This document shows positions 4,648 to 29,482 of a stretch of 37,336 bases of DNA, in pieces (position 1 is the stretch's first letter; the number at the start of each line of letters is the position of its first letter). The notes under the pieces were generated by a model. It saw only the letters and a program-made list of their open reading frames with translations. It was not told the origin of the DNA and made no database searches. The position numbers were made by a program, and so were the translations under genes. Origin of the DNA: a bacterium (GTDB lineage: Bacteria > Patescibacteriota > Patescibacteriia > SG8-24); contig JAHFIW010000009.1 in NCBI GenBank assembly GCA_023246195.1, forward strand, positions 1-37,336, in the 5' to 3' direction.

Positions 4648-6154
<1,507 letters not shown>

Positions 6155-24740: not shown

Positions 24741-25013
24741 ATGAACGTGGCTGGATACGCGATTATCGTCGCTCTCGTCTGCGTGGGGCTGGCCGCGTGG
24801 AGCCTTAGTGCCATGTCACGCGTCAAGAACGACAAACGTCATATGCAGGATCCGCGACAAGCAAACATCGAGAAGATTCGCGACATCTATGCGCGTGCCA
24901 AGGCGAAGCTCGATACGCTTCGTAAAGAGCGTCGTTCCCTCATCGAGCGATATGAAAAGAAGGCAGATGAGTTCCGGTCCGCGGAAGCTAAGAAACGTCT
25001 CGAGGAATTATGA
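24741..25013 (+). CDS. Small membrane/coiled-coil protein upstream of the kinase (90 aa)
   Basis: One N-terminal membrane helix (about 4-25, AGYAIIVALVCVGLAAWSLSAM) followed by a lysine-, arginine- and glutamate-rich helix to the end (IEKIRDIYARAKAKLDTLRKERRSLIERYEKKADEFRSAEAK), probably a coiled coil in the cytosol. GAGAGG is only 2 nt from the ATG at 24741 but 8 nt from a GTG at 24747, so the real start may be that GTG (88 aa). The stop overlaps the kinase ATG as ATGA, so the two are translationally coupled. It could anchor the kinase-like protein at the membrane; this is inference. Confidence 0.75.
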   Translation: MNVAGYAIIVALVCVGLAAWSLSAMSRVKNDKRHMQDPRQANIEKIRDIYARAKAKLDTLRKERRSLIERYEKKADEFRSAEAKKRLEEL

Positions 25014-26788
25014 ACGGAGCATTAGAGCCAAAACGCCACCGGTCGTCTCCGGAAAATCAGCCAGACGAGGAGAAGACGGCCGAGCGGCTTGCTGCTGCCG
25101 AGCCGGCGACGAGGCCGGATGAGGTTTTTGAGCTTTCTGGTGATGACCTCATGGCCGACATCGACAGTTCTCAGGCCGAATCCAAAAAACGACTTGACGA
25201 TGCCGAAAGGGGCTTCGGAGAGCTTCCTCTCGAACTTTTACGGTCCAGGCGGGAGGTCATGAGCCTGCTCGATGCCAATGGCGATACCATGCGCGCCGTT
25301 GTCGATGAGGCGCGACGCGAAGCGGAAGCATTGCTTCCCTTTGCCGATACCGAACCAGCCCTAGACATTGCGTCATCGGCACATGCCGAGCTCGGCGCGG
25401 ACACGTCTGAATCGAGGTCTCCTGATCAGGTGGCTCGCGGAAAGGCCGAAGCCGCGATGGCGGCCCTCGTCGCGAAGGGGCCGGAGGGCAGCAGTTATGA
25501 CGAAAAGCTGAGCATCATTCTTCCGGCGCTTGAGGCGAACCCATGGCTCGGGTATCAGCTCGATGCGGTCGGTTTGTCGCCGGGCGAGAAGCTCGGCGTG
25601 ATGCTTCGCCTGGCAAAAAAGTCGCCCGCGGCGTTTTTCACGGCGATAAAAAGTTCGGGGATCGATTTTACGAAAGACGAGAAGATGGCGATTACCCAGG
25701 ACATCCTCGAAGACATTCCTGAGAATTTCCCCGAGGCGGCGCGCCGGTTCAATCTCTCGCATGACGACGTGGCGGAGATTATCAGGGAGTATGATCCGGA
25801 AAATCGAGCGGTCCTGCTTCAGGTGCTTAAGATTCCGGGACGCGAAGGAACGAAGGCTTACATGGGGTTCTCTCAGGAAGAAGCCGCGTTTTTCATGGAG
25901 GCTGAAAAGAGCGTGGAAAAGCGGGGGGAGTTCAAAAAAATCGAGGCCGTGAGGAAGGTGAGCAGGGACTTGATGCTGGCAATCGAGGCCGCTTTTCCCG
26001 AGCGCGCCGAAGCGGAACGGGAGCGGGCCAAGGCTGAGCGTGAGCTGATGGGCAACATGGAGTCCTTCGGCGAGCTTTCCGATCCGGCCGTTAAGGCGAC
26101 TCAAACCGCGAACAAGCCGCTCTATGTGAACTTTGAGGGACGGCTGCTTCCCGCGTGCTACAAGCCGCGGAAAAGGGAAGCGGCAATCAGATCGGGCATC
26201 GTTAAGGGCGAGTCCGTCGGTCGTGAAGCGCTTGCGGCATTCATCGATCGCGCCCTCAAGCTCGATCTCGTTCCTCCGACGGTGCTGCGCGACGGGCCCG
26301 AAGGCATCGGTTCCGTGCAGGACTGGAAGGTCGGTCAGAGCGCCTTTAAGCTCGCAGGCGATGCGTATGATCAGAGGCATGAGGCAGAGCTTAAGAAACT
26401 GGCATTCTTTGATTGGCTGACGACGAACAGCGATCGGCATGAAGGAAACTGGATGGTGAGTCCGGACGGGAGGCATCAGGCAATCGATAACGGCGCAATT
26501 TTCGGGAAAAGGGTGGACAGGGAAGACGGCTTGCGTTCGGTTCCTTCCGATGCGATGGCCGGTCTGGATTTGCCGTCGGAAATCCGGAAGAACGTTGAGG
26601 GGCTGATCGGCTCCCCTGAAGTCATGGCAGCCCTGAAGAAAGGTTTTGAGGCGACGCTGAGCGCGGAGGATGCCGTCCGTGCATGGAAGGAATTCACCGA
26701 TAAGTTGGAACTGGTCATGGCCGATAAGGATTTCAAGATTCAGGACAGCGAATGGCTGGATTTCTTTTCGGCAGTGCGGCATGCTTGA
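25010..26788 (+). CDS. PI3/4-kinase-like (HipA/FAM20-fold) domain protein (592 aa)
   Basis: Residues 1-150 are acidic and probably disordered or helical; 150-350 are helical, with KLSIILPALEANPWLGYQL and a charged coil EAERERAKAERE. The C-terminal domain (about 365-592) shows the PI3/4-kinase-like pattern. It has a beta strand with an ATP-binding lysine (YKP, K385), a helix with GREALAAFIDRALKLDLVPPTV (E406 in the alpha-C place), a catalytic loop FDWLTTNSDRHEGNW (D475, N480) and a metal loop AIDNGAIFG (D493). Families with this signature phosphorylate lipids or proteins, and in bacteria include effectors and HipA-like toxins. The start ATG overlaps the stop of the small membrane protein. No signal peptide. 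The substrate is unknown; the fold assignment is by motif pattern only. Confidence 0.7.
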   Translation: MNGALEPKRHRSSPENQPDEEKTAERLAAAEPATRPDEVFELSGDDLMADIDSSQAESKKRLDDAERGFGELPLELLRSRREVMSLLDANGDTMRAVVDEARREAEALLPFADTEPALDIASSAHAELGADTSESRSPDQVARGKAEAAMAALVAKGPEGSSYDEKLSIILPALEANPWLGYQLDAVGLSPGEKLGVMLRLAKKSPAAFFTAIKSSGIDFTKDEKMAITQDILEDIPENFPEAARRFNLSHDDVAEIIREYDPENRAVLLQVLKIPGREGTKAYMGFSQEEAAFFMEAEKSVEKRGEFKKIEAVRKVSRDLMLAIEAAFPERAEAERERAKAERELMGNMESFGELSDPAVKATQTANKPLYVNFEGRLLPACYKPRKREAAIRSGIVKGESVGREALAAFIDRALKLDLVPPTVLRDGPEGIGSVQDWKVGQSAFKLAGDAYDQRHEAELKKLAFFDWLTTNSDRHEGNWMVSPDGRHQAIDNGAIFGKRVDREDGLRSVPSDAMAGLDLPSEIRKNVEGLIGSPEVMAALKKGFEATLSAEDAVRAWKEFTDKLELVMADKDFKIQDSEWLDFFSAVRHA

Positions 26789-26854: not shown

Positions 26855-27217
26855 ATGGAACAACCTAAAGAAACGAACATGAAGTGGGTTGACCTCGTCG
26901 AATTCGATGCGATCGCCCGCAAGGGGAAAGTCCTGGTTCGCGTGATGCTCGAAGGCGGGCGCGCGCGTTTCGAGGGTGACGCCAGGCTCGTCGGACAGCT
27001 GGAGAAGAACGGCGTATTCTCGTCGTCGGCAAAGAAGAACGTCATGGCCGACGAGGGGGAGCTCTTCCTCAAGGCGCTTGGCGAGAAGTATCGCAACGCC
27101 TATCTCTTCGCCACTGACGTGAAAGAAGGCGAGAAGCCAGAGCCGTACGAGCCGCCGCCGGTAACCAAGGTTTTCAGCGAAAAACCGAAGAAAAGCAGCC
27201 TTTCCAAGACCGCCTGA
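26855..27217 (+). CDS. Hypothetical small protein, third gene of the kinase unit (120 aa)
   Basis: Not recognised. The N-terminal part (10-75) reads as a small alpha/beta fold (WVDLVEFDAIARKGKVLVRVMLEGGRARFEGD, LFLKALGEKYRNAYLFATDV). The tail is Pro/Lys-rich (EKPEPYEPPPVTKVFSEKPKKSS) and probably unstructured. No signal peptide. An AAGGAG is 14 nt upstream of the ATG, too far to be certain; the internal Met9 is an alternative. No terminator separates it from the kinase gene 66 nt upstream, so it may be in the same transcript, which ends at 27231-27260. Confidence 0.65.
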   Translation: MEQPKETNMKWVDLVEFDAIARKGKVLVRVMLEGGRARFEGDARLVGQLEKNGVFSSSAKKNVMADEGELFLKALGEKYRNAYLFATDVKEGEKPEPYEPPPVTKVFSEKPKKSSLSKTA

Positions 27218-27281: not shown

Positions 27282-27310
27282 TTGACAGGCTCGGCAATCC
27301 GTGGTAAGTT
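27282..27310 (+). promoter_or_regulatory. Promoter of the orphan structured RNA
   Basis: Consensus TTGACA (27282-27287), 17-nt spacer, TAAGTT (27305-27310) with an extended -10 TGG just before it. No coding region follows on this strand before the terminator at 27480-27511. Confidence 0.7.
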
Positions 27311-27316
27311 CATACG

Positions 27317-27511
27317 TCGTAGAAGAAGAACCTTTCACACGGCACAAGAAACACCCTAGCGATTCGCGCTCACGACAAGCATGGGGATTACTTGAAGGAT
27401 GTATTGGGCTCCGGCTCGATCTCCCCTCCGAGTACTCTTCTTGAGCGCGACTCATTGGGGTGTTTTTGTTTCCAGACTGAAAACGACGGCCTTACGGTCG
27501 TCGTTTTTTTG
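27317..27511 (+). ncRNA. Candidate stand-alone structured RNA of about 195 nt (6S-like shape)
   Basis: Between two genes there is a promoter, a transcript with no credible ORF, and a terminator. The body folds into one long imperfect hairpin. The closing helix is AAACACCC (27349-27356) with GGGTGTTT (27458-27465). An 8 x 8 internal region follows that can form five more pairs, then CGCGCTC (27365-27371) with GAGCGCG (27443-27449). Inside lie an asymmetric unpaired 5' stretch of about 22 nt (27372-27393), a helix of GAAG/CTTC plus GTA/TAC (27394-27403 / 27433-27440), and a CTCG/CGAG hairpin (27415-27418 / 27429-27432). A long rod closed at the base with an internal bubble and this length resembles 6S RNA. 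The 6S name is only a hypothesis; no sequence motif proves it. SRP, tmRNA and RNase P motifs were looked for and not seen. Confidence 0.55.
27480..27511. terminator. Bidirectional terminator (orphan RNA / VanW gene)
   Basis: Eleven-bp stem AAACGACGGCC/GGTCGTCGTTT with one G-U, TTAC loop, then seven Ts on the plus strand and TTTT on the minus strand. It serves the orphan RNA and probably the vanW-like gene that ends at 27516. Confidence 0.85.
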
Positions 27512-27515
27512 TCGT

Positions 27516-29429
27516 TCAGCGGGCGGGAACCGGCGTTGTCACCGCTGGCACGTCAGCTGCAGCGGAGTCGGGCGAGGTGATGAGTTCTTGCGTGGTCACT
27601 CCCGGCGGCAGCTTGGAAGGATCGACGCCCTCCAGGCAGACTTCCTGCCATGGCTTGTAGTGGCTATGGAAATCCGTCTCCTTTTTGGTGCCGTCGAGGA
27701 AGTTGACGGTGTAGGTGAACACGGCTTCGCTGCCCACATGCGCGTGCTCAGTGCATTTTTCTTCGCCGGGCTTGAGCTCGCTCGTCTGGATGATCTTTTT
27801 GGGCGGCGGCTGCACGATGTTGTACACGCGTGAACTTGTCTGTGAGGACGTCCGTCCGTCCTTCACTCCCCAGAAGGTGAAGGTCAGCTTGTTCCCCGCG
27901 ATGTCCGTCCAGATGAGGATTTCGTGTCCGGTATCGTTGAGAAAGCGGTAGTCGGGCGCCGGATCGTAGATGGTGGCATCCTTGCCGGGACCGATGTTCT
28001 TGCCATCGCCATCGCGCTCATAGTAGGGGACGCGATAGGAATGGTTTTGTCGGGCGGTCACCGGCAGGCCGGCATCGAGGGTCACGCGGAAGGCGGTAGA
28101 GCCAATCTGGCAAAGACCGCCACCGTATTCCGGCAAGGTCTTGTTTTCCTTGATGACGAGCTCTTGGAGGTAGCCGGTAGTGGCATCGATTTTTCCGAGC
28201 GTCTTGAGCATCGAGAACTCTTCGCCCGGAGCGACGAGCGTGCCGTTCACGCTGGCGGCGCCGACCGCAATGTTGTGACGACGGTTTTTTGGACTGCCGA
28301 CGAAGTTGGTGGCGCCTACCCCGATGACTTCCTTGATGCCGTAACGGTTCGATTTTTCGGTGTCGATTTCAGGATGAATCGGCATCAGCGGCAGGGCAAT
28401 CGGCTTGATATCGTCCGTGCCGAACGCTACGGACTCGATGGCTACCGCTGAAGCGTCGGGGTCGATGGTCTCGCCGTCCGCGCCTGGCACGAAAGTCGTC
28501 ACCTTGCCGTCTTTTTCCTCAAATACGGCATTTTTTGGCTCGGTCCGAATGGAAGCCGCGAGGGTCTCGACGTAGTTCTTCATCTTGTCGCGGTCGAGTG
28601 CCAGCACGGGGGAGCCGTCATTGTCGGCAGGGACGGCCGTAATCAAGTCGGCGAAGTTTCGGCGGGAGAGCGTCCATGTTTCGGTTTTGGCGTTGAGGGT
28701 GAAGGGCGCGCGTCGTATGGCGGCGTCGACTGCCTGGATGAGCGGCGTGAGGTCTGCCTTGGTGAGGTGCGGCTTGTCCTGTTTGGCGGGTATGCTGATG
28801 GTTTCATCGGAAAGGGAGGCAAGGCGATCATCAGTGGCGCGCATTACCGCGTCATAGTTGACGACCGCTCCGTCCTGTTCGGGATCGACGCTTACGGCAG
28901 GAGCGCCGTTCTCGTTGAACGTGATGACGAAGCGCGCGTCTTTCCCGATGGAGACGTTGTCGGAAAAATGCTGTTCCAGCGCCGCGCGAAGAGCGGTGCG
29001 GTCAAGGGTGTGCGGAAGGTCGATGGAGGTGCCGATGAGCGCCGTACGGATACGCTTGAACATGGCGATAGCCGGATTGGCATCGCGCCCGACGCCAAGG
29101 GCCTCGCTGACGGCAGCGGTAACGTCGTACTTGGCAACGGGAATGGTGCCTGCATTGGGGGTGATATCGACAGTCTGTCCATTGAGAAGGTAATGGAGGC
29201 GAAGCGTGGTCACTTGCCGGCGAATTTCGGCAGCCGCCTCATCCGAAGTCCTGCCCCCAATATTGACGCCATGAATCGAAACGCCTTGAATGACTTGGTT
29301 TTTCTTGGATGTGGCCAGCGCGCCGTATGTGGCTGCTCCTACGAAGACGGCAGCCAATAAAAAAAGCGCCACCGCCCGAAGGATAAACGGTGACCGTCCC
29401 TTTCCGCGATTTTCGCGTTTGTCGGTCAT
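27516..29429 (-). CDS. VanW / YoaR family cell-wall protein (637 aa)
   Basis: An N-terminal membrane helix (about 17-38, ILRAVALFLLAAVFVGAATYGAL) exports a large extracellular part. Two peptidoglycan-binding-like (PG_binding_4) modules follow: GVNIGGRTSDEAAAEIRRQV with LLNGQTVDITPNAGTIP near 50-100, and a second around 200-300. The VanW domain (about 340-490) has AVGAASVNGTLVAPGEEFSMLKTLG, PEYGGGLCQIGSTAFRVTL, and RQNHSYRVPYYE. The C-terminus is a Pro/Ala-rich tail. VanW proteins were first found in vancomycin-resistance clusters, but their biochemical role is not settled; a wall-associated one fits here. A GTG at 29447 is in frame 6 codons upstream; the ATG at 29429 is chosen, though neither has a strong SD. 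It follows HSP20 by 53 nt without a terminator. Confidence 0.9.
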   Translation of the reverse strand: MTDKRENRGKGRSPFILRAVALFLLAAVFVGAATYGALATSKKNQVIQGVSIHGVNIGGRTSDEAAAEIRRQVTTLRLHYLLNGQTVDITPNAGTIPVAKYDVTAAVSEALGVGRDANPAIAMFKRIRTALIGTSIDLPHTLDRTALRAALEQHFSDNVSIGKDARFVITFNENGAPAVSVDPEQDGAVVNYDAVMRATDDRLASLSDETISIPAKQDKPHLTKADLTPLIQAVDAAIRRAPFTLNAKTETWTLSRRNFADLITAVPADNDGSPVLALDRDKMKNYVETLAASIRTEPKNAVFEEKDGKVTTFVPGADGETIDPDASAVAIESVAFGTDDIKPIALPLMPIHPEIDTEKSNRYGIKEVIGVGATNFVGSPKNRRHNIAVGAASVNGTLVAPGEEFSMLKTLGKIDATTGYLQELVIKENKTLPEYGGGLCQIGSTAFRVTLDAGLPVTARQNHSYRVPYYERDGDGKNIGPGKDATIYDPAPDYRFLNDTGHEILIWTDIAGNKLTFTFWGVKDGRTSSQTSSRVYNIVQPPPKKIIQTSELKPGEEKCTEHAHVGSEAVFTYTVNFLDGTKKETDFHSHYKPWQEVCLEGVDPSKLPPGVTTQELITSPDSAAADVPAVTTPVPAR

Positions 29430-29482
29430 ACAGGGGTAGCTTTCCACGAAGCGCTCTCTTGTACAAGCGAACGCCTCGTTTT

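Follow-up and report, generated by a model that had tools for sequence, protein, structure and literature searches.

Introduction

The 6S RNA (Rfam RF00013) is a rod-like hairpin with an internal loop, usually encoded in one copy as a stand-alone gene. It binds the RNA polymerase holoenzyme and acts as a template for pRNA. Its central bubble is large and two-sided, and the bubble sequences vary. One of the shortest 6S RNAs is ~160 nucleotides (nt) long (PMC9130861). Ms1, a 6S-like polymerase-binding RNA of about 300 nt with a bubble plus two terminal hairpins, was found by synteny in Actinobacteria lacking 6S (PMC9130861). The RNA of the bacterial signal recognition particle (SRP; RF00169, RF01854) is another short rod-like housekeeping RNA, and SRP subunits are absent in many bacteria of the candidate phyla radiation (PMC8080830). 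Herein, a structured RNA is described from a bacterium of the phylum Patescibacteriota (GTDB lineage SG8-24). The window is the whole stretch of DNA that was analyzed, 37,336 nt of contig JAHFIW010000009.1 in assembly GCA_023246195.1. The RNA is encoded by a stand-alone gene at about window 27347-27475(+), preceded by an extended -10 promoter and followed by an intrinsic terminator.

With very little doubt, the locus (27350-27467, +) belongs to a conserved family of structured RNAs, normally present once per genome, with a strong promoter of the housekeeping type and intrinsic termination, and near-universal in the class. The RNA shares with 6S the rod interrupted by a conserved internal loop, the usual single copy, and the stand-alone gene, and it spans 150-190 nt between its predicted start and its possible ends. 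Similarly, it shares with Ms1 the lineage-wide presence in a conserved gene neighborhood of bacteria without 6S. The discovery by comparative genomics, the strong structure, and the unassigned function are shared with the orphan structured bacterial RNAs in Rfam; however, none of the 4,227 families of Rfam 15 gave a credible match. No paper on the RNA was found in the open-licence literature. The RNA family is real and apparently undescribed, as a preliminary description of this DNA had proposed for a stand-alone structured RNA; the class-wide presence, the covariation, and the RNA's own promoter and terminator bear this out.

Distribution of the RNA family

By blastn, the RNA was found in 24 of 57 class genomes, with one occurrence each. 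The exact core pattern was matched in more than 113 stretches of GTDB genomes, almost all of them from ABY1-group Patescibacteria by record title, and the lineages included Uhr-, Magasanik-, Falkow-, Kerfeld-, Buchanan-, and Komeilibacteria. The matches in Dyella, Eisenbacteria, Verrucomicrobia, and others are apparently chance matches to a short pattern. A covariance model (R1) detected the RNA in 20 of the 22 same-class genomes of a phylum sample, and the refined model (R2) detected it in 31 of the 33 genomes sampled from the host class, the ABY1 group of Patescibacteria. Outside the class, R2 gave seven matches, some weak, among 347 genomes. The preliminary description had considered a lineage-specific RNA; this was right, and the lineage is the whole class plus a few outliers. 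The host genomes are mostly metagenome-assembled.

The RNA is usually present in a single copy per genome. Two tandem copies are found in several Buchananbacteria and in genome G043; the second copies at L035, L040, L082, L123, and in G043 lie about 200 nt apart from the first and are mutually diverged. At L012:1485-1670, the RNA is directly followed by a repeat of part of its hairpin. The core pattern had no match in 2.9 million viral contigs, and a phage or mobile element was rejected on this result.

Fold and covariation

The segment 27317-27475 was folded with a minimum free energy of -62 kcal/mol (z = -4.75), and none of 200 shuffles was as stable. The fold of 27282-27511 gave z = -4.5. 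The structure is a single rod-like hairpin interrupted by an asymmetric bulge, with the following parts.

27350-27372, + strand: 5' arm of the basal stem P1, AACACCCTAGCGATTCGCGCTCA (from fold and covariation)
27371-27384, + strand: near-invariant 14-nt motif CACGACAAGCAUGG at the bulge, identical in 101 of 104 alignment rows, a figure inflated because many rows were retrieved by the motif itself
27373-27382, + strand: unpaired 5' bulge of about 10-11 nt (from fold)
27383-27400, + strand: 5' arm of helix P2 (95.5% of cells paired; double-sided changes in 5 of 8 pairs)
27404-27419, + strand: apical hairpin with a UNCG-type loop (UCCG, 27410-27413), a covarying stem, and a near-invariant G-U wobble pair
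27437-27443, + strand: CUUCUUG, the conserved 3' side of the internal loop (conservation of 97% or more at alignment columns 133 and 135-138)
27442-27465, + strand: 3' arm of P1, followed by its own U-run (from fold, covariation, and T-run counts)

The RNA does close on itself as a stable hairpin with an apical helix, as had been described; however, the basal stem is about 21 base pairs (bp) with small interruptions and not 8 bp, and about 10-11 nt, instead of 22 nt, are left unpaired on the 5' side. In the family consensus, the 5' side of the internal loop leaves about 10 nt unpaired and the 3' side 1-6 nt. The apical loop swaps among UNCG, GCAA, and others across the family, while its stem covaries. 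The near-invariance of CACGACAAGCAUGG and of the CUUCUUG loop is due in part to selection by the search pattern. In L161 and L162, two members found by the covariance model, ACAAGCAUGG is kept and the first bases of the motif vary.

Compensatory changes in the stems of related genomes had been named beforehand as a check, and strong covariation was found. The alignment of 104 sequences was fitted to the covariance model and its absolute figures therefore lean towards structure: standard pairs fill 91.3% of cells, compared with 62.9% after shuffling and 53% or less when the partners were slid; double-sided compensatory cells number 1,261, compared with 389 in shuffles; and the covariation score is 0.719, compared with 0.207 in shuffles and 0.17 or less with partners slid. 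Within P1, 93.2% of cells are paired and 19 of 21 pairs have double-sided compensatory changes. The first, unfitted alignment showed double-sided change in 32 of 41 pairs, and both this alignment and the slid control point in the same direction as the fitted figures. A conserved G-U pair (alignment columns 77 and 100) is found in 103 of 104 sequences. This pair is meaningful solely on the plus strand, which is the strand of the promoter.

The same alignment was used for the coding reading. Modulo 3, the row lengths take every possible value, and in 51 of 104 rows each of the sense frames is interrupted by a stop. Frames that begin at the conserved AUG of the bulge differ widely in length, most often 3-18 codons. 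A coding region was rejected, since no open reading frame (ORF) is consistent across the family.

Promoter and terminator

The preliminary description had placed the locus correctly. Between its two transcription signals, the plus strand has about 190 nt without a credible gene, and transcription is expected to start near 27317 (predicted).

27282-27310, + strand: promoter, with -35 TTGACA (27282-27287), a 17-nt spacer, and extended -10 TGG-TAAGTT (27302-27310), read from the sequence
27479-27508, + strand: intrinsic terminator, a 13-bp stem with a T-run

The promoter is absent from the list of the single-window consensus scan because TAAGTT agrees with TATAAT at just 3 of 6 positions. Family-wide statistics confirm the TTGACA-N17-extended -10 arrangement that had been read at this locus: a -35/extended -10 score of at least 10/13 was reached at 79 of 102 family loci, compared with about 6 expected from shuffles. 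The spacer is 17 nt in 72 of these 79 loci, and the best promoter match has an exact TTGACA in 75 of the 102. A T-run or hairpin terminator was found at 81 of 103 loci, compared with 21.6 in shuffles. For the T-run at the foot of P1, the counts were 46 of 103 and 20.5, and for a hairpin terminator at most 75 nt away, 44 of 103 and 1.2. The strong terminator reported earlier is present on the plus strand, but its description as bidirectional is weak, with four Ts only on the minus strand. By its promoter and terminator features, the family looks like a strongly transcribed gene, and these statistics fit an abundant, constitutively made RNA.

Relation to known RNA families

The Rfam covariance-model check that had been suggested (6S, SRP, RNase P, tmRNA) gave no match to the region. 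The RNase P RNA model does not match at the locus, and RNase P RNA lies at other positions in 17 of 19 genomes, among them the host's own. No tRNA or transfer-messenger RNA (tmRNA) match was found in the region. In one complete class genome (G010, L275-L333), ARAGORN found 46 tRNAs and no tmRNA. The RNA does not occupy the 5' UTR of a gene, as a riboswitch or cis-regulatory leader would: it is followed by its own terminator, and the gene after that is transcribed in the opposite direction, towards it. SRP RNA models matched in 0 of 145 genomes (small) and 0 of 39 (large model) of the Patescibacteria sample, and none of 39 genomes gave a match above the cut-off for the SRP protein Ffh. In this sample, the SRP system has apparently been lost. 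With SRP RNA and Ffh both undetected in the phylum sample, an SRP RNA was rejected, whereas the rod-like housekeeping form is alike.

The possibility of a highly diverged 6S, raised in the preliminary description, found no support as far as homology goes. RF00013 gave no match to the region even at E<=10. Canonical 6S was matched in 0 of 55 class genomes by this model and in none of the class genomes of the phylum sample. Among other Patescibacteria, canonical 6S was matched in 14 of 192, two of them above the Rfam cut-off, and none of these 14 belongs to the genomes carrying the new RNA. At all four 6S loci inspected (L271-L274), an M50-type membrane peptidase gene (named from the sequence) immediately precedes 6S, whereas the new RNA usually adjoins a gene of the VanW family; R2 had no credible match at these four 6S positions. 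One complete class genome has another ORF directly after the M50 gene, which leaves no space for 6S. Canonical 6S identity was therefore rejected, with no model match in either direction and a different locus. A 6S-like function, as distinct from homology, is still possible.

Gene neighborhood and diverged relatives

26855-27217, + strand: uncharacterised ORF, the 5' neighbor of the RNA locus
27516-29447, - strand: VanW-family / PG_binding_4 protein gene, convergent with the RNA (Pfam PF04294, E 6e-37)

A VanW homologue lies at most 4 genes away at 104 of 130 loci, a set that includes a few chance pattern matches. Its orientation is convergent in 83 cases, upstream on the same strand in 13, and downstream on the same strand in 9. 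Hsp20 and ClpP-like genes are often in the neighborhood too. Further upstream in the window, at 25010-26788 (+), is a 592-aa protein whose PI3/PI4-kinase-like match is borderline (E 6e-6) and falls slightly short of the Pfam cut-off.

The relatives L163 and L164 from other classes likewise adjoin VanW, which supports their homology. Diverged copies were searched for beside VanW in other classes, and most flanks had none. A CUGUAGGC...GYCUACAG hairpin was found beside VanW in five genomes (G062, G078, G113, G154, G169), compared with about 0.5-1 expected from shuffles. Only G113 and G154 also match the covariance model; for G062, G078, and G169, which do not, homology is argued from position and stem sequence. 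The other-class hairpins L187, L191, and L193, also linked to VanW, share this P1 sequence and have no credible match to R2.

Possible function

The RNA would act in trans as an abundant ribonucleoprotein, in which the long P1 and P2 helices may be rigid arms, and the CACGACAAGCAUGG / CUUCUUG internal loop together with the invariant G-U pair at the tip is the predicted protein-contact site. The single most likely partner would be RNA polymerase, and the RNA would then be a non-homologous stand-in for 6S, as Ms1 is in Actinobacteria. The class-wide presence, single copy, strong promoter, rod, conserved internal loop, and lack of 6S make the RNA resemble Ms1. The polymerase mechanism itself is a tentative proposal, which we hold to be possible rather than probable, and several points weigh against it. 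The strongest is the one-sided invariant loop: it is strongly asymmetric (about 10 vs 1-6 nt) and nearly invariant in sequence, unlike the bubbles of 6S. At about 120 nt, the core rod falls short of the known 6S RNAs in length. Ms1, to which the RNA was compared through Rfam and the published description (PMC9130861), is longer, has extra terminal hairpins, and binds the core polymerase. No similarity to 6S was found by sequence or covariance model in either direction, and the mutual exclusion of 6S and the new RNA comes from few genomes, with about one overlap expected by chance.

The RNA may instead be an unrelated housekeeping RNA that shares no mechanism with 6S. Its invariant loop would bind a different protein, or the ribosome, in translation, stress, or envelope functions. 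This account is quite plausible, somewhat short of an even balance. The 14-nt motif, which hardly varies, and the invariant G-U pair at the tip resemble a specific protein or RNA docking site, and the tight linkage to VanW, often with Hsp20 and ClpP genes, is in its favor, although no partner protein is indicated. The loop ACGACAAGCAUG is also complementary at 11 of 12 positions to the conserved 16S stretch CAUGGUUGUCGU (window 5098-5110, -). The one position that does not pair is a G-G mismatch, invariant in the RNA; the rRNA stretch itself is part of a base-paired helix; and chance makes such a match only modestly improbable (a few per cent by our estimate). The 16S rRNA gene occupies window 4649-6154 (-) and is followed by four tRNAs, and no 23S rRNA match was found within the window. 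The exposed, conserved 10-nt bulge could also be the mRNA seed of a trans-acting antisense small RNA. However, the start regions of one complete class genome have 19 loop sites of at least 8 bp, compared with 20-63 for shuffled loops, and this lack of enrichment disfavors a seed role. The other 11-nt complements in that genome are scattered singletons, and the RNA's own genome has only the RNA itself and two one-mismatch sites; an antisense role is unlikely.

Slightly less probable still is a cis-acting element tied to the VanW gene, either a regulator or a 3' processing or termination structure. The VanW homologue near 104 of the 130 loci and near several diverged relatives speaks for it, but the RNA has its own promoter and terminator, is transcribed mostly towards VanW, changes orientation, and at some loci has no VanW nearby. 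The whole neighborhood, with Hsp20, ClpP, and others, is conserved, so the VanW linkage may be plain synteny. A diverged SRP RNA (4.5S) might be hidden in a phylum without any SRP RNA model match; however, Ffh, its binding protein, is likewise missing and no domain IV motif is seen by eye, and this reading is effectively refuted. The probability left by the polymerase and housekeeping readings is shared among antisense, cis, and unforeseen roles. Taken more broadly, the case is evenly balanced for an ancient ABY1 housekeeping RNA with diverged Patescibacterial relatives, not a 6S homologue, that makes a new RNA-protein or RNA-ribosome interaction at the CACGACAAGCAUGG / CUUCUUG loop.

Significance

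Patescibacteria make up a large share of bacterial diversity; their genomes are tiny, and few regulatory RNAs are known from them. An RNA retained almost throughout a reduced-genome class, and preceded by a near-consensus promoter, probably matters to the cell. The covariance model, the conserved locus, and the near-invariant motif make it testable what replaced 6S in this lineage, and also how global regulation works in cells without the SRP system and canonical 6S.
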